Below are positions 14,725 to 61,993 of a stretch of DNA of 64,000 nucleotides, one piece after another. The position numbers and the translations under genes are program-made. Source of the DNA: a virus; IMG/VR virus record IMGVR_UViG_3300032116_000108, positions 16,133 through 80,132 of that record; one strand, given 5' to 3'. Positions within the stretch are counted from its first letter, which is position 1. Each line of letters opens with the position of its first letter. The notes under the pieces are model-generated. The model saw only the letters and a program-made list of their open reading frames with translations. It did not search any database and was not told the origin of the DNA.

Positions 14725-16563
14725 TTAACCAAAGTCAACGGTACTTAGATTTAAGACACTTACTTTAATGTCCTTATTAGGGAATCTTATTTGATATATT
14801 TGGTCAGGTTCTGCAAATATCGTATTATTAATTAGTCGTATCTGTTTTGTTGTTGTGTTCACATAACTTTGTGAAGTTTCTGATGATGAGTATTGACCTC
14901 CAACTTTATTATAGACTTTAACTTCACTTAATGTATTAACACCAGCAATATCTTGTATTTGTTTATTAAGGTCAGATATATTAACATTCTGACCCAAATC
15001 TCTATTTGCTGGATTCATGAAGTTTGAAGTTGTATTAATAATTTCAGTTATTACTTGAGATTGGCTACCAGGTGAATCTAAAACTACAAAAAATTCAAAC
15101 TCTAAATCAATAACTTTTGCAACTTCTACGGAAATATAATCATTAATCATTCTATATCTTGATAAATAAGTTGCCAAATTTGAGATCAAGTTATTAGAAA
15201 CCGTTTGTGTTAATGCCCCTGAAACATCATACGATAAAACTTTAACCGATATTTTATTATTAAATTCACTTATTTGAACCTTTGCAGGTGCACCAAATTT
15301 TCCAGGCATTGTCTCTATAAGAGATTTATAATCATTAATTGTTACAGCCCTTCTTTGTGCCGCAAAATTAAATGAAACCATATTTCTTACTTCATTAACG
15401 CTAGGTTGATTTGCCCCTCCTATTGCTGCCGTAATATTATTTACAGTTAATGACTGGACAACATTAGTATTGTCTTGTTGTGACGGACCATTAACACTAA
15501 AATCTATTTGACCTAATTGATTTATCGCACCAACACCAATATTGGACGATAAACCACCACCAATTCTATATTGTATAAACAATGTTGTGTTTGGTATAAC
15601 GGTTAAACCTAAACCAATATTATTTTGATAATTCGCTAAGTTTAATTTTATACCTGTATTTGTAAAATTGTTTAATTGTTGTTCAGGTGTTGTTGTTCCT
15701 CCACCAAATTGTAACTTTAAAAACCCTTCAGGTGTATATTCAGTTATAAATCTATTTTGAGTTTTTATATATTTCCCTACTTTTACACCAGCGTTATCTG
15801 TTGGTTTTGTTGGGTCTTCTACAAATATTGTGTCTTCAACTAAAGAATCGACTTCATACCATCTATTTGTTGATGTCGAAAACTCGGCAAATGTTGGTGT
15901 TGTTTGGTATTGTGTTCCGTCTTTTTGTATTACTGAAGTTACCCCTAAAACATTTCTTTCAGGTAAGAAAAAATTAAAAAAGGGAACAACATCTTGTGGG
16001 TTAATTACTTTTTTAAATACTTTTGTGGCCCCATTTACTACCACTTCTTGTTTAGTAATGACATAACTTGATAACTTATTATCTTGATCAAATATAGGTC
16101 TAACTGTTCTATTGATAAAACCTTCATTATTAAATTGAGTGGAAAAATCAACGTCGTTAACTAATTCAAAGATCTGTCCTCCTCCTTGAAACTGGGATCC
16201 TGCCCTTAAAATACCTAAATATCTTGAATCAGGGGAATCACCAAATGGTCGTACTGTTATTGAAATATTAACAATCGCAACCGATGGTCTGTATCCCGGA
16301 ATTTTAAGTCCGTAGGTTCTAGCAATATTAAATACTGAAGATCTTTGTTGTGCAAACTGTAATACTGTTTCTTGAACACTTCTATCAATATGATAATGTA
16401 AGTTGTCACCTATCGCAGCATTTAAATCCATGAACACAGAAAAAAGAGATGCGTCATTAAAATTTTGTATTAACTCAGGGTAATACTGTTGTGTATAATT
16501 TAATAAGTCTTCTCTTAAACTTACAAAATCTCTGTTTGTGTATGAAATTTTATTATTTGCCAT
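14725..16563 (-). CDS. Baseplate wedge protein, T4 gp6-like (gpJ family)
   Basis: 612 aa, close to T4 gp6 (660 aa). The N-terminus 'ISYTNRDFVSLREDLLNY' and the following 'DLNAAIGDNLHYHIDRSVQE' are the hallmark of the gp6/baseplate J-like family. The central 'FGGGTTTPEQQLNN' and C-terminal 'RRAVTINDYKSLIETMPGKFG' are also typical. gp6 dimerises to form the wedge ring and triggers sheath contraction. It sits 6 nt downstream of the gp25-like gene, the conserved gp25-gp6 order of contractile machines. The start ATG is at 16563; the leader lacks a Shine-Dalgarno sequence. Confidence 0.9.
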   Translation of the reverse strand: MANNKISYTNRDFVSLREDLLNYTQQYYPELIQNFNDASLFSVFMDLNAAIGDNLHYHIDRSVQETVLQFAQQRSSVFNIARTYGLKIPGYRPSVAIVNISITVRPFGDSPDSRYLGILRAGSQFQGGGQIFELVNDVDFSTQFNNEGFINRTVRPIFDQDNKLSSYVITKQEVVVNGATKVFKKVINPQDVVPFFNFFLPERNVLGVTSVIQKDGTQYQTTPTFAEFSTSTNRWYEVDSLVEDTIFVEDPTKPTDNAGVKVGKYIKTQNRFITEYTPEGFLKLQFGGGTTTPEQQLNNFTNTGIKLNLANYQNNIGLGLTVIPNTTLFIQYRIGGGLSSNIGVGAINQLGQIDFSVNGPSQQDNTNVVQSLTVNNITAAIGGANQPSVNEVRNMVSFNFAAQRRAVTINDYKSLIETMPGKFGAPAKVQISEFNNKISVKVLSYDVSGALTQTVSNNLISNLATYLSRYRMINDYISVEVAKVIDLEFEFFVVLDSPGSQSQVITEIINTTSNFMNPANRDLGQNVNISDLNKQIQDIAGVNTLSEVKVYNKVGGQYSSSETSQSYVNTTTKQIRLINNTIFAEPDQIYQIRFPNKDIKVSVLNLSTVDFG

Positions 16564-42596: not shown

Positions 42597-43550
42597 CTAA
42601 TCATATTTAGTTTTAGTTCCTCCTTTAGTTAAATATAAATTAACTGGACTTTTTTCATATTCTTTTTTCAAAAATTCAGAAGATGCTTGAATATTTCTTG
42701 GATCATCATCTGAAAAACCAATTGAAACGTTTCTAGAAACAAACTCTTCTATGTCTTGTGTTGGTTCGTTCATATTAACATCATTTTTAAATTTTGGAGA
42801 AATGTCTTCTAATTTTTTATTTGGGTTTTTATTTAAAATGTCTTGTACCAAATCTCTTGCTTGTTGTTTACAATAAATTATAAATTTTTGAAGTGCTTTA
42901 TTTTTTTCTTCTTCAGGTGATGCTGCGCTGCCGGCACCAAAAGAAACTGGATGAAATTTACACATATCTAAGTAATCCATAATAAGTTCTTTATCATCAT
43001 ACTTTAAGTCTCTTACAGTTTCGAACATTCCTTGAGTTTGTAACCCCCTATATTTTTTTAGGTTCTCCACTAAAACTTTAGAATTTATACCCAAATGATT
43101 TGATATAATATAATTTAAAACCGCCTCTTTTAATGTTTCAGGATTATGTCCTCTTGCTGTTATAATTGCAAAAATTGACCCCCCATTAATACATTCCACA
43201 AAGTCATTCCATGATGGTCCTGGACTTGCAATCATCGAGTCGATTATAAATCTTTTATCCCCTTCTGTTCTAAAATTTCTAAAGGGATTATTTGCATAAC
43301 CAACAACAGTAGTTCCTTTATAATTAAAAGGTTCAACACCTATTTGGTGTCTGTGTTCAGCAAAATCTTCGGTTGACAGTCCAATCTCATCCTCATTTTC
43401 TGTTAAAACAATAATTTTAGTTGGCATAAATGCAATATTATCATCCCAATCAAACGCATAATAATTTAAATCTGGTCTCCCTTCTTCAGTAATACCTTCA
43501 TTTAATCTTCGTTTATTAATCTCTCTATATATGTGTTTTCTAATATTCAT
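42597..43550 (-). CDS. HAD-superfamily phosphatase-like protein with capsid-targeting-like leader
   Basis: 317 aa. HAD motif I 'YYAFDWDDNIAF' (Asp34-x-Asp36), motif II 'FAIITARGHN' (Thr) and motif IV 'IGFSDDDPRNI' are present; motif III Lys is not certain. Such enzymes hydrolyse phosphate esters, e.g. nucleotides or polynucleotide 3'-phosphates. The first 18 residues 'MNIRKHIYREINKRRLNE' are a basic leader ending in L-N-E, as on four other proteins, so the enzyme may be packaged in the head and processed. It overlaps the 45-aa gene by one base. A C-terminal ~70 residues after motif IV are unassigned. Substrate unknown. Confidence 0.7.
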   Translation of the reverse strand: MNIRKHIYREINKRRLNEGITEEGRPDLNYYAFDWDDNIAFMPTKIIVLTENEDEIGLSTEDFAEHRHQIGVEPFNYKGTTVVGYANNPFRNFRTEGDKRFIIDSMIASPGPSWNDFVECINGGSIFAIITARGHNPETLKEAVLNYIISNHLGINSKVLVENLKKYRGLQTQGMFETVRDLKYDDKELIMDYLDMCKFHPVSFGAGSAASPEEEKNKALQKFIIYCKQQARDLVQDILNKNPNKKLEDISPKFKNDVNMNEPTQDIEEFVSRNVSIGFSDDDPRNIQASSEFLKKEYEKSPVNLYLTKGGTKTKYD

Positions 43551-48480: not shown

Positions 48481-48996
48481 TTATACTCCGTTAAAGGTTT
48501 CTTGTGTTGTTGGTGCTGCGATTATTGTTCTATAATATTTTTTATATCCACCATAAGAGTGCTTCAAATCTGAATTAACTCTACCATCATTTACTACCGT
48601 ATAGTATCTTACTCTATCTTCTGTTTCATAATAGGCTAAATAATCACCTAAAGATATTTCTACAGCAAATTGATCTAAATGTGATTGATAAACACTAAAG
48701 GTCATATTTCCTGGTTCTACTTGTGATAATTTAGACGAACCATAGTCTGAATTTGATGGTGAATCTATTTTAACTAAACCTCTTAATTCGATAGGTGCTA
48801 AAAATTGTATTCCATTTGTTAACGCTTCTCCATAAACATCATCATTATTTGTTTTTTGTCTATCTACTCGATATAAAACAACTGTGAAATTCATATCCCC
48901 AATTTGCCATTCCATTCCCATATTAATATCTAAATTAAAATCTTCCTCTGAGAAAAACTTATTTAATCTTGTAATTGGAACTTTATTCTGTGACAT
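48481..48996 (-). CDS. Putative neck / head-tail joining protein
   Basis: 171 aa, beta-rich, 'WQIGDMNFTVVLYRVDRQKT', 'GIQFLAPIELRGLVKID' and 'ISLGDYLAYYETEDRVRYYT'. No confident family. It lies two bases before the gp15-like gene and faces the gp13-like gene across a plus-strand island, so a gp14-type neck role is suggested by synteny. A TATTTAT element is 4 nt upstream of the ATG. Confidence 0.45.
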   Translation of the reverse strand: MSQNKVPITRLNKFFSEEDFNLDINMGMEWQIGDMNFTVVLYRVDRQKTNNDDVYGEALTNGIQFLAPIELRGLVKIDSPSNSDYGSSKLSQVEPGNMTFSVYQSHLDQFAVEISLGDYLAYYETEDRVRYYTVVNDGRVNSDLKHSYGGYKKYYRTIIAAPTTQETFNGV

Positions 48997-49000
48997 ATTA

Positions 49001-49007
49001 ATAAATA
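49001..49007 (-). promoter_or_regulatory. TATTTAT upstream element (leftward)
   Basis: TATTTAT 4 nt before the ATG at 48996; one of a back-to-back pair in the 58-nt divergent gap. Function as a promoter would imply a leaderless message. Confidence 0.4.
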
Positions 49008-49041
49008 CTTTGATTGATTTTTTTATATTATTTACTATTTT

Positions 49042-49048
49042 TATTTAT
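49042..49048 (+). promoter_or_regulatory. TATTTAT upstream element (rightward)
   Basis: TATTTAT 6 nt before the SNF2 helicase ATG; the rightward partner of the element at 49001. Confidence 0.4.
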
Positions 49049-49054
49049 AATATA

Positions 49055-50818
49055 ATGGAAGAATTAATTTCAAAAACACCTGAAACAAGGGCCCTTCAAA
49101 TGTTAGATGATTATGTTGGGTCAAATAACTATATCTTGTCATTAAAAAACAAAAAACAAAATAGTAAGTCTTTTACCCCCACAAGATCTCAAGCGGAATA
49201 CATAATTAACTTTCACGGACGAACACCAAAGGTGGCAAAAAAATGGGTCAAGTTAGATTCGTATTTTGGAAAAAAAATGATGGAAGATAAGATGTACACT
49301 AAAGAACCAACGGAAATATATGTTGAAAAACTTTTGGTGGAGAAGGATAAGTCATACCATATATGGGGTAAAATATTTAGTGGTGAGACCATACATGATT
49401 TTTGGATTCCAAAAACTGCACTTATTAAAGATAATGAGGTAAAGAATGTTGTTATTGAATATTCAAAATATGACCACAGGGCTCCGATGGATCACCAAAA
49501 AGAGGCGATTGAAAAACTTGTTAGAAACAAAAAGTTTATTTTGGCCGATGACATGGGTCTTGGTAAAACAACCTCAACAATTATTTCGGCACTTGAAACG
49601 GGTGCAAAAAAAATATTAATTGTGTGTCCCGCATCTTTAAAAATTAATTGGCAACGCGAAATTGAAAATTATTCAGATAGAACTGTTTATATTGCGGAAG
49701 GCAAAAAGTTTTCAACTGAATCTGATTTTGTTATAATTAACTACGACATATTAAAAAACTTTCACGACCCAAAAAAGAAAGACGACTCCATAATTTTAAA
49801 TTCTAATTTTGATTTAGTTATCATGGATGAGGCACATATGATTTCAAATCCACAAGCACAAAGAACAAAAATAGTTAACGATTTATGTGATAAAGTTGAA
49901 AGGGTTTGGTTATTAACAGGAACCCCAATGACCTCAAGACCAATGAACTACTACAATCTTTTAAGTTTAGTTGAAAGTCCTGTTGCCGCAAATTGGATGG
50001 CTTACGCAAAAAGATACTGTAATGGATTTCAATTTAGTGTTGGTAAAAGAAAGGTATGGAACGTTACGGGAGCATCAAACTTAGATGAGTTAAGAGAAAG
50101 GACACAAAGCCATATTTTAAGAAGATTAAAAGAAGATGTTTTAGATTTACCAGATAAAATTATTACTCCTGTTTATTTAAGGTTAAAATCAAAAGACTAT
50201 GAAGAATTAATGGGTGAATACTTTAATTGGTATGACAACAACTCAGAAGAGTCTTCATCTTTAACCATTCAGTTTGGTAAATTAATGAAAGTTAGAAAAG
50301 TGATTGCTGAAGAAAAAATTAAAAATACAATTGAATTGGCTGAAAATATTATTGATCAAGGAAAAAAAGTAATCATATTTACAAACTTTACGGATACGTT
50401 ACGAACCATTTATGAACATTTTGGAAAACAGGCAGTTTATTTAGACGGGTCTTGTTCAAAACCACATCGTCAAAAAGCGGTGGATGATTTTCAAGAAAAC
50501 GACAAAATAAAAGTTTTTGTTGGTAATTTAAAGGCCGCTGGTGTTGGTATTACTTTAACATCTGCAGAAGCCGTAATCATGAATGATTTATCTTTTGTCC
50601 CCGCAGAACACGCACAAGCAGAAGATAGATCACACAGAATAGGTCAAAAAAACTCAACATCGGTTTATTATCCATTATTTGAAAACACAATAGAAGGGGT
50701 GATTTATGATATTTTAAATAGAAAGAAAAAAATCATATCAACAGTCATGGGTGATGATATTATGGAAGATGCATCGACAATTGAAGAAATGTTAAATTTA
50801 ATTTCTCATAAGAGGTGA
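49055..50818 (+). CDS. SNF2-family (SMARCAL1/UvsW-like) DNA helicase
   Basis: 587 aa from ATG 49055. An in-frame 57-codon extension to 48884 is rejected: it overlaps the divergent neck gene and encodes hydrophobic junk. Superfamily 2 motifs are complete: I 'ADDMGLGKTTS' (Lys171), Ia 'ILIVCPASLKINW', II 'DEAH' (258-261), III 'LLTGTPM', V 'GNLKAAGVGITLTSA', VI 'QAEDRSHRIGQ'. This set is that of SNF2/SMARCAL1-like annealing helicases, which anneal ssDNA and regress forks, the job UvsW does in T4. Likely acts in recombination-dependent replication with the UvsX-like protein. The first gene of the plus-strand island. Confidence 0.9.
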   Translation: MEELISKTPETRALQMLDDYVGSNNYILSLKNKKQNSKSFTPTRSQAEYIINFHGRTPKVAKKWVKLDSYFGKKMMEDKMYTKEPTEIYVEKLLVEKDKSYHIWGKIFSGETIHDFWIPKTALIKDNEVKNVVIEYSKYDHRAPMDHQKEAIEKLVRNKKFILADDMGLGKTTSTIISALETGAKKILIVCPASLKINWQREIENYSDRTVYIAEGKKFSTESDFVIINYDILKNFHDPKKKDDSIILNSNFDLVIMDEAHMISNPQAQRTKIVNDLCDKVERVWLLTGTPMTSRPMNYYNLLSLVESPVAANWMAYAKRYCNGFQFSVGKRKVWNVTGASNLDELRERTQSHILRRLKEDVLDLPDKIITPVYLRLKSKDYEELMGEYFNWYDNNSEESSSLTIQFGKLMKVRKVIAEEKIKNTIELAENIIDQGKKVIIFTNFTDTLRTIYEHFGKQAVYLDGSCSKPHRQKAVDDFQENDKIKVFVGNLKAAGVGITLTSAEAVIMNDLSFVPAEHAQAEDRSHRIGQKNSTSVYYPLFENTIEGVIYDILNRKKKIISTVMGDDIMEDASTIEEMLNLISHKR

Positions 50819-50825
50819 TATTTAT
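50819..50825 (+). promoter_or_regulatory. TATTTAT upstream element
   Basis: TATTTAT beginning one base after the helicase stop and 4 nt before ATG 50830. It supports 50830 rather than the upstream start at 50815 for the superoxide dismutase. Confidence 0.4.
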
Positions 50826-50829
50826 TATT

Positions 50830-51546
50830 ATGATATTTAGAAAGTTAAATGAAAAAATAAATTTAATAGAAAATAAGTTAGGGGTAAAATCACTAATAAA
50901 CGAATCTTTAATTAATGAAATTAAAAAAATTTCAATAGAAAAATTACCTTATCAGTTTGACGATTTAGAAGACTTCATAGATGGTGAGACAATGAAAACA
51001 CACTACACAAAACACTACAAGGCGTACGTTGAAAAGTTGAATAAAGAATTAGAAAAAATAAAAGGTAAAGATTTAGATTTAGAAGAAATTGTTTCGAGTA
51101 TTTCCAAATTCAATACAAAGGTAAGAAACAATGGTGGTGGTGCGTTTAATCACGCATTATTTTGGAAAATGTTATCACCTAAAAAAACTAAGTTAGAAAA
51201 TCCTTTATTATATAAGTTAGAGTCCACATTTGGGTCATTTGAAAAATTTAAAGAAAAGTTTGAAGAAGAAGCGAAATCCAGATTTGGATCAGGTTGGGTA
51301 TGGTTAGTACTAACAAAAACAAATAGATTAAAAATTGTCACAACACCAAATCAAGATAATCCACTAATGATGACAGGAAAAAATAAGTCATATCCATTGT
51401 TAGGTTTAGACTTATGGGAACACGCATATTATTTAAAATATAAAAACGAAAGAGACCGTTATATTCATAATTTTTGGAAAGTAGTGAATTGGGATTTTGT
51501 TACTGATTTATACACAACTCAATTAGAAAGAAATAAAGCAGAATAA
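50830..51546 (+). CDS. sodA: Mn-type superoxide dismutase with capsid-targeting-like leader
   Basis: 238 aa. Converts superoxide to oxygen and hydrogen peroxide. The SOD domain starts at ~36 ('EKLPYQFDDLEDFID'). All four metal ligands are present: His58 ('TMKTHYTKHY'), His108 ('GAFNHALFW'), Asp194 and His198 ('GLDLWEHAYYL'). Gly104 and Gln175 ('TPNQDNPL') are the positions that mark Mn rather than Fe enzymes. The first 30 residues are not part of any SOD and end in a tandem 'SLINESLINE', two I-N-E sites like those of T4 gp21 protease; cleavage would leave an exact SOD domain. It is not a secretion signal (no hydrophobic core). It stands between helicase and neck genes. Confidence 0.9.
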   Translation: MIFRKLNEKINLIENKLGVKSLINESLINEIKKISIEKLPYQFDDLEDFIDGETMKTHYTKHYKAYVEKLNKELEKIKGKDLDLEEIVSSISKFNTKVRNNGGGAFNHALFWKMLSPKKTKLENPLLYKLESTFGSFEKFKEKFEEEAKSRFGSGWVWLVLTKTNRLKIVTTPNQDNPLMMTGKNKSYPLLGLDLWEHAYYLKYKNERDRYIHNFWKVVNWDFVTDLYTTQLERNKAE

Positions 51547-51573: not shown

Positions 51574-52692
51574 ATGTCAACATCAATTATTTCAGAACCG
51601 CATAGAAGTAAACTTTATAAAAGAATTAGAAATCTTTTAGGTGCACCTTTAAGAGGTGTTGAGTTAGAAGATGAAATGATGGACTCTCTTTTAGAGTTAT
51701 CCATTCAAGATTATTCTCAACACGTTAATGATTGGTTAATTGAGACCCAATGGTCGGCATTGTACGGGTTAAACCTTGATGAACAATCTTTAACTAAAGC
51801 ATTTACAACTAGAAGTTTAGATTGGGAAACACAATACACTTACGCATACTCAAAAATTGTTGGTTTACAGGCTGGGGGTGATTACGTACTTCAAAAAGAT
51901 TATATAGACTTAGTTCCGCATCAACAAATTTATGAGATACCGGCAGGTAGAGAGGTTAATGAATTACTTTGGTTTGCTCGTTCTGAATTGGACGCAGCAT
52001 ATTTTGATCCATTTATGGGTGGATTCGGTGGATTCGGCGGTATTGGTTTAGGTGGTGGTGCTGGATTTTCTCAGATGGGTACAACAGGAAACTATTTTAT
52101 AACCCCAGCATTTGATATTCTTTTGAGAATGGCGGACATACAATTAAAAAGAAGAATTATTACAGGTGATTTAACTTATAGAATAACCGCGTTACCCGAA
52201 GGAAAAAAGGCAATACATTTATATAATGTTCCTGGTGGTAAATTTGATTTTGGTAATATGAGAAGAAACGATTATAGAGTTTGGTATTGGTATTATGATA
52301 CATTTGATAGGGACGATTGTTTGGCAAAAAATCCTGATGTGGTTAGATTACCTTCCGATATACCTATAGATGAAACAAGGTGGGACGAATTAAATTCTCC
52401 TGCACAAACATGGGTAAGAAGATGGTTTACAGCATATTGTAAAGAAACACTTGCAAGAGTAAGAGGTAAGTTTAGTGGAAATTTAAAAACACCTGATAGT
52501 GAATTAACTCTTGAATATACAACGTTACAATCAGAAGCCAAAGATGAAAAATCAATTCTTTGGGAAGAACTCAAAACAAGACTTGAAAGGTTAAGACCTG
52601 AAAAACAATGGGAAATAAAGGGTGCTATGGCTGAAAATATGAATAAGGCTCTAAAATATAGACCATTTAATTACCCAATAAACGTAATTTAA
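51574..52692 (+). CDS. Neck protein, T4 gp13-like
   Basis: 372 aa, against 309 in T4. 'KLYKRIRNLLGAPLRGVELE' and 'SIQDYSQHVNDWLIETQW' at the N-terminus and 'FGNMRRNDYRVWYWYYDTFD', 'VRRWFTAYCKETLARVRGKF' in the C-terminal half follow the gp13 neck family. A Gly/Phe-rich insertion ('GGFGGFGGIGLGGGAGFS', residues ~149-166) is probably a flexible loop. gp13 joins portal to tail. Plus-strand, 27 nt after the SOD stop; the other neck/completion genes lie on the minus strand at 47250-48996. Confidence 0.7.
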   Translation: MSTSIISEPHRSKLYKRIRNLLGAPLRGVELEDEMMDSLLELSIQDYSQHVNDWLIETQWSALYGLNLDEQSLTKAFTTRSLDWETQYTYAYSKIVGLQAGGDYVLQKDYIDLVPHQQIYEIPAGREVNELLWFARSELDAAYFDPFMGGFGGFGGIGLGGGAGFSQMGTTGNYFITPAFDILLRMADIQLKRRIITGDLTYRITALPEGKKAIHLYNVPGGKFDFGNMRRNDYRVWYWYYDTFDRDDCLAKNPDVVRLPSDIPIDETRWDELNSPAQTWVRRWFTAYCKETLARVRGKFSGNLKTPDSELTLEYTTLQSEAKDEKSILWEELKTRLERLRPEKQWEIKGAMAENMNKALKYRPFNYPINVI

Positions 52693-61301: not shown

Positions 61302-61595
61302 ATGGCAGTACAAAGTGATAAAATTGATCTTTCACAACCCGAAAATGAAATGTCAAGAATAGCGGAAGAACAAAGAAAAAGACTATTCCCAAGAAATGAT
61401 TTTAAACCAACCGATCAATATTCGGCAGTACATCCTGACGCAATTGCTGATGGTGACGTAAATGGTAAAGGTACGGGAGGTGATTTAGATATTTATAACC
61501 AAAGGGCCGGATCAAGTGTAGATAGGGCTGAAAGAATTGATGATATAAAAATAAACAAATTTTCACCTAACAACCCATATTATCAAGTTAGATGA
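61302..61595 (+). CDS. Small hydrophilic hypothetical protein
   Basis: 97 aa, charged and lacking hydrophobic core: 'DLSQPENEMSRIAEEQRKRL', 'FPRNDFKPTDQYSAVHPDAI', ending 'KFSPNNPYYQVR'. Likely extended or disordered. Overlaps the next gene by 4 nt (ATGA), which supports translation. Function unknown; the composition would suit an assembly or minor structural protein. Confidence 0.55.
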   Translation: MAVQSDKIDLSQPENEMSRIAEEQRKRLFPRNDFKPTDQYSAVHPDAIADGDVNGKGTGGDLDIYNQRAGSSVDRAERIDDIKINKFSPNNPYYQVR

Positions 61596-61993
61596 AACTA
61601 ATTAAAACTTTAAAACACGTCATCAACGAAGCGGCATCAATAGACGATGTTAGAAATTCCATACGCAATAAAAAAGTCATGATTATATATTATGATGGTG
61701 AAGACAATGGTGGTAAAGGGTATCGAACAATAGAACCGGTATGTTTAGGTGTAAGTAAAAGGGGTAATTTTGTTTTAAGAGCGTGGGAAGTTGAGGGTTC
61801 TTCTTGGAGTGCACAAAATGAAGGTAACATTTTACCCGGATGGAGACTTTTTAGATTAGATAAAATCTTTACATATAGACCAACTATGGATAATTTTTAT
61901 ACTATGAGACCTAAGTATAACCCTAATGGTGATAAAAGTATGGAAAGGGTCTTTATAAACGCAAAATTCGACAATGAAGAAAATATAACTTAA
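61592..61993 (+). CDS. WYL-like-domain protein with targeting-like leader
   Basis: 133 aa. After a leader 'MKLIKTLKHVINE' ending I-N-E, the body ('KKVMIIYYDGEDNGGKGYRT', 'IEPVCLGVSKRGNFVLRAWE', 'LPGWRLFRLDKIFTYRPT') follows the layout of WYL domains: Y-x-x-x...R-x-x-x-P...L....G...LRA......R.FRLDKI. WYL domains sense nucleic-acid ligands and regulate defence and repair in bacteria; here there is no DNA-binding domain, so it is a stand-alone fold. The leader suggests packaging in the head. Start overlaps the previous stop (ATGA). Confidence 0.6.
   Translation: MKLIKTLKHVINEAASIDDVRNSIRNKKVMIIYYDGEDNGGKGYRTIEPVCLGVSKRGNFVLRAWEVEGSSWSAQNEGNILPGWRLFRLDKIFTYRPTMDNFYTMRPKYNPNGDKSMERVFINAKFDNEENIT

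Follow-up and report, generated by a model that had tools for sequence, protein, structure and literature searches.

In phage T4, the prohead protease gp21 cuts after the motif L/I-X-E (PMC9026906), and Alt, an enzyme cargo, is cleaved at ITE-6 and LTE-619 (PMC5694885). For superoxide dismutases (SODs), the Cu,Zn-SOD of Megavirus, found in giant eukaryotic viruses, is listed among virion-packaged proteins (PMC9405923); it is a virion SOD too, but its fold and the viruses that carry it are unrelated to those considered here. Large phages also encode Fe/Mn SODs, as is the case for the Pseudomonas PA5oct/Callisto group and Vibrio phage 2.275.O; these proteins share ~27% identity with the SOD described below, are shorter, have no leader, and are encoded among metabolic and chaperone genes. 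Our literature searches turned up no tailed phage reported to package an antioxidant enzyme, no virion containing a phage SOD, and no proteomics of the uncultured phages studied here.

The SOD gene that we have analysed belongs to a large, uncultured phage of the T4-like kind and lies at 50830..51546 on the + strand of the window, by which we mean the whole 64,000-nucleotide stretch under study (positions 16,133 to 80,132 of IMG/VR record IMGVR_UViG_3300032116_000108, an 80,132-bp fragment). It starts with ATG, runs for 238 residues (28.3 kDa) without internal stop, and encodes a complete Fe/Mn superoxide dismutase. Both Pfam matches are above the curated cut-offs (Sod_Fe_N, E=6e-24, 84.7 bits against a cut-off of 27; Sod_Fe_C, E=2e-40, 137.3 bits against 20.9), and the closest solved structures are bacterial Mn-SODs such as S. 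aureus SodA (5n56, E=3e-59, residues 36-229). The metal ligands His58, His108, Asp194 and His198 and the Mn-type Gln175 are found exactly where a sequence-only reading of this DNA had placed them, and they are invariant in an alignment of ten sequences (A2), as are His62, Tyr66 and Glu197, which presumably form the usual second shell. The best explanation would include an active enzyme of the Mn type. With the bacterial Fe/Mn SODs (PF00081 + PF02777; S. aureus SodA, Sphingobacterium Mn-SOD) the phage protein has the fold, the metal ligands, the Mn-type Gln and the second-shell residues in common; it differs from them by a leader or linker of 30 residues in which (I/L)-x-E is conserved, and by the modules that are fused to it in relatives.

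The cellular relatives recovered are ~35-52% identical over the main match and largely come from Bacteroidota, and in a quick tree one branch sets all the phage SODs apart, with weak support. A search of PHROGs gave no family matching this SOD, and an Rfam search gave no match near its gene. Several top database matches labelled 'phage' were dropped as relatives, since their records, short or unannotated and with bacterial-type SODs, look like host DNA as they are listed. A SOD with an LxE-type start (MNLKIVDILREG) was also seen at L168:2953-3678, on a contig binned as Fluviicola.

The leader (MIFRKLNEKINLIENKLGVKSLINESLINE) occupies 50830..50919 on the + strand, and part of it reads SLINE SLINE IKK. 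It contains I-N-E at residues 28-30 (50911..50919, + strand), which is a predicted prohead-protease site, and again at residues 23-25 (50896..50904, + strand), a second possible site; L-N-E at 6-8 and L-I-E at 12-14 are present as well. In a single IMG/VR scan at least 588 stretches were found to encode relatives of this SOD, and the best 80 were fetched; among these best 80 of at least 588, (I/L)-x-E stands directly ahead of the SOD fold in 56 of 56 distinct N-terminal regions, with S, N, T, L or V as the middle residue. The tandem pair of I-N-E sites that had been pointed out earlier does exist, but it is the one at 28-30 that is conserved throughout, while the one at 23-25 is kept in the closest relatives only. 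When the leader was shuffled at constant composition, four (I/L)xE were weakly above expectation (p=0.04), so that the count by itself could still be due to chance; two exact LINE gave p=0.0001, although this pattern was picked after the fact. We therefore base the view that the motif is not there by chance on its conservation at residues 28-30 in relatives. A cut behind Glu30 would leave a protein of 24.8 kDa beginning IKKISIEK-LPY, with 8 residues ahead of LPY compared to 7 in many cytosolic SODs; cleavage at this point would give a SOD whose N-terminus is close to canonical length.

Relatives of this SOD are often fused to other domains, which changes how the leader is to be read. In a census of 60 distinct open reading frames (from the best 80 of at least 588 relatives), a domain of ~120-130 residues with an HExxH motif precedes the leader in 31, an extra module follows the SOD in 6, and 23 carry neither. 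The front domain is fused in L006-L070 (e.g. L006:7626-8711), and a stand-alone gene for it was found at G002:66915-67304; we call it metallopeptidase-like because of HExxH and a downstream Glu, while Pfam returned a weak DUF6055 match alone and no confident family. The C-terminal module is present in L071-L081 and also at G002:118104-119060 and G003:261346-262263, and Pfam and PDB profile searches gave no confident family for it; nuclease-like refers to its invariant E...D...QxK residues. Fold searches with models of the fusions returned only SODs among the matches listed (the SOD part being ~40-47% identical to the top PDB matches), and did not place the extra domains by structure.

On the tree, the front domain changes between presence and absence at least 11 times, and two proteins, L079 and L042, start with what appear to be the first residues of this domain joined directly to the linker. 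The leader in the window shares homology with the linker that joins metallopeptidase-like domain and SOD in the fusions, and based on this and on these two proteins we regard it as the fusion linker minus its front domain. The 30-residue leader described earlier is thus indeed present, but it is not a dedicated, added presequence. Where the front domain is missing, the protein starts 30-52 residues ahead of the cut, and exactly 30 ahead in 19 of 36 (L080, whose start is unclear, is an exception); since even these unfused versions keep at least 30 residues, the segment seems to be needed. In five of the nuclease-fused proteins, a second (I/L)-x-E pair links the SOD to the C-terminal module. In structure models, pLDDT falls below 50 at residues 145-156 in L006 and at 15-37 and 233-246 in L081, and in the metallopeptidase-SOD model the linker is the sole segment below this value, so that the motif-bearing junctions are predicted to lie in unstructured linkers.

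The element TATTTAT is found just ahead of the SOD start codon (50819..50825, + strand), and 51 of the 53 distinct regions upstream of SOD genes have it, mostly 11-13 bp ahead of the start codon. In sibling contigs it also precedes genes for sheath, tube, scaffold, protease and neck proteins, and it is absent before DNA polymerase B and the SNF2 helicase. Upstream of genes it occurs in strong excess and with a strand bias (238 vs 79 of 776), and we interpret it as a late-promoter-like element; its absence before the major capsid protein and portal genes counts against packaging. A possible phage sigma factor is encoded at G002:301298.

A gp21-type (S77) protease is encoded in 7 of 15 sibling contigs and a T4-type gp23 capsid protein in 8 of 15. 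In each gp23-bearing sibling the capsid propeptide ends in ...SHLINE|A, where we have placed the cut by analogy with the T4 gp23 site, and the LINE tetrapeptide is also present in the SOD leader. A homologue of the nuclease-like module of L080 (E=5.5e-29) is encoded in G002, with the protease gene on one side and the scaffold gene on the other, and has an (I/L)-x-E start of its own. Protease and capsid genes were found neither in the window's own record nor in the close relatives searched, all of these contigs being fragments. The idea that the SOD is packaged therefore gains from the conserved gp21-type motif, the protease and LINE|A site of siblings, the modules joined by motifs, the nuclease homologue in the head operon and TATTTAT, and loses by the lack of protease and capsid genes in its own record; taken together, the support that sequence gives to packaging is substantial but indirect.

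We suggest, with a probability of roughly 0.55, that the SOD is made late as a precursor that enters the prohead, is trimmed by the S77 protease, and is delivered with the DNA. The precursor would be produced in the structural phase, and its N-terminal linker segment would carry it into the prohead core, where the gp21-type protease would cut behind the conserved (I/L)-x-E, here Glu30, during head maturation. The freed SOD of canonical length would then stay in the head and, like T4 Alt and the internal proteins, enter the cell along with the DNA. In relatives the gene would be a small polyprotein, and the metallopeptidase-like module in front or the nuclease-like module behind might be freed by the same protease. 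Cleavage, packaging and ejection are thus steps that we infer, as is a benefit, which could be that superoxide is removed as infection begins or in the surroundings of packaged DNA; a blunted oxidative burst of the host or protected DNA, as the sequence-only reading had proposed, may be the purpose. More tentatively, a widespread group of large T4-like phages might pack such a cargo polyprotein, in which the SOD is constant, the metallopeptidase- and nuclease-like modules are optional, and cuts by the prohead protease inside the head yield several separate effector enzymes from one gene, all entering the host with the DNA.

The likeness to T4 consists in an (I/L)-x-E after an N-terminal segment, as in the internal head proteins and Alt, in an enzyme as cargo, as with Alt, and in the gp21-type protease and gp23 capsid protein of the sibling contigs. 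In contrast to the T4 proteins, the leader is longer (30 vs 10-20 residues) and sometimes internal in fusions, the cargo is a SOD, and its packaging is a prediction. The SOD would work like Alt and the internal proteins, and we regard it as a candidate member of their class. Two further observations count against packaging. While the T4 CTS is N-terminal, the segment presumed to target the metallopeptidase fusions lies within the protein, and the P1' residue after the SOD motif is Ile or Met, whereas it is Ala at the capsid site and Gly in the leaders of a HAD-like protein (see below).

The main rival is a phage SOD of the ordinary cytosolic kind, unpackaged and at work in the infected cell, with the leader as a leftover interdomain linker in which (I/L)-x-E is kept for structural reasons. 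Such a role would fit the leaderless SODs of Vibrio phage 2.275.O and Pseudomonas phage Callisto and the homology between leader and fusion linker, and it would also account for the flanking E-I-K-K being just as conserved as the motif itself; the conserved EIKK..IEKLPY could belong to the SOD fold instead. The pattern of a fixed I/L, a free middle position and a fixed E, however, looks like a protease site and not like packing, and the segment is predicted to be disordered. The nuclease fusions, moreover, have such sites at both ends, and the unfused versions retain their leader of at least 30 residues. We thus consider the cytosolic explanation unlikely, while taking it more seriously than those that follow.

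The position of the gene bears on a further alternative. Among the 81 loci, each on a phage contig, every one that can be read on both sides has the order SNF2 helicase, SOD, neck protein; in the window, the SNF2-family helicase is at 48884..50818 (+ strand, listed from a GTG, the true start probably being further in) and the neck protein, PHROG head-tail adaptor Ad2, at 51574..52692 (+ strand). Because this neighbourhood is kept at all readable loci, we consider the SOD to be a resident gene of this phage group and not a stray acquisition. The sequence-only reading had placed it among head-neck genes, which is right for the downstream side but not for the upstream one, and the sheath and other tail genes sit on the opposite strand. 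A plain auxiliary metabolic gene would be free-standing, without phage-specific additions and among metabolic genes; here we find a leader, fusions and a place beside a neck gene. The invariant adjacency could mean that the SOD serves the neck or tail as a structural accessory, with its leader docking to the neighbouring neck protein, but the helicase is just as invariant a neighbour, and a motif of head-protease type at the end of the leader would be superfluous in a protein docked to the neck, which makes such a role very improbable. Least probable of all is that the metallopeptidase-like domain itself processes the linker, which would make the leader a relic of self-processing, as the direct fusion of an HExxH domain upstream and its repeated changes of presence on the tree might suggest, since the motif is kept in unfused and nuclease-fused versions that have no such domain, and at the SOD-nuclease junction as well.

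If the SOD is indeed packaged and delivered, superoxide would seem to be of importance when the DNA enters or while the virion is stored, and cargo delivery of the T4 type would be widened to cover redox control besides host-takeover factors. The fusions also provide a sequence rule, in that (I/L)-x-E leaders or linkers, together with an S77 protease in the genome, could be used to predict packaged proteins of uncultured phages.

Other proteins in the window and its siblings bear similar N-termini. Between tail genes, a protein at 42597..43550 (- strand), HAD-like by motif only and without a Pfam match, has a short basic leader, RRLNE|GITEEG; among 45 matches to leader-bearing relatives, with 32 distinct N-termini, (I/L/V)-x-E-G is kept while leader length varies. 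A WYL-domain protein at 61592..61993 (+ strand) has the leader KHVINE|AAS, which is nearly identical to the sibling capsid site HLINE|AAS. In the proteins of G001, G002 and G003, (L/I)(L/I)xE is enriched within the first 40 residues (z of 5.1, 6.8 and 5.7, respectively), with G003 alone showing a weak rise at residues 40-80 and none of the three an enrichment at C-termini. In these same three genomes (loci L100-L144), dozens of unrelated proteins share the N-terminal tags MKIIITESQ, RLTESDLxRIVKRVINEN or IIRKVLKE, all of which hold (I/L)xE. We did not adopt the idea that every protein with such a genome-wide tag is packaged, as one of them, at G003:257849-258772, has phage lysozyme and LysM domains. 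The apparent orthologues at G003:149774 and G002:130110 bear tags of different types.
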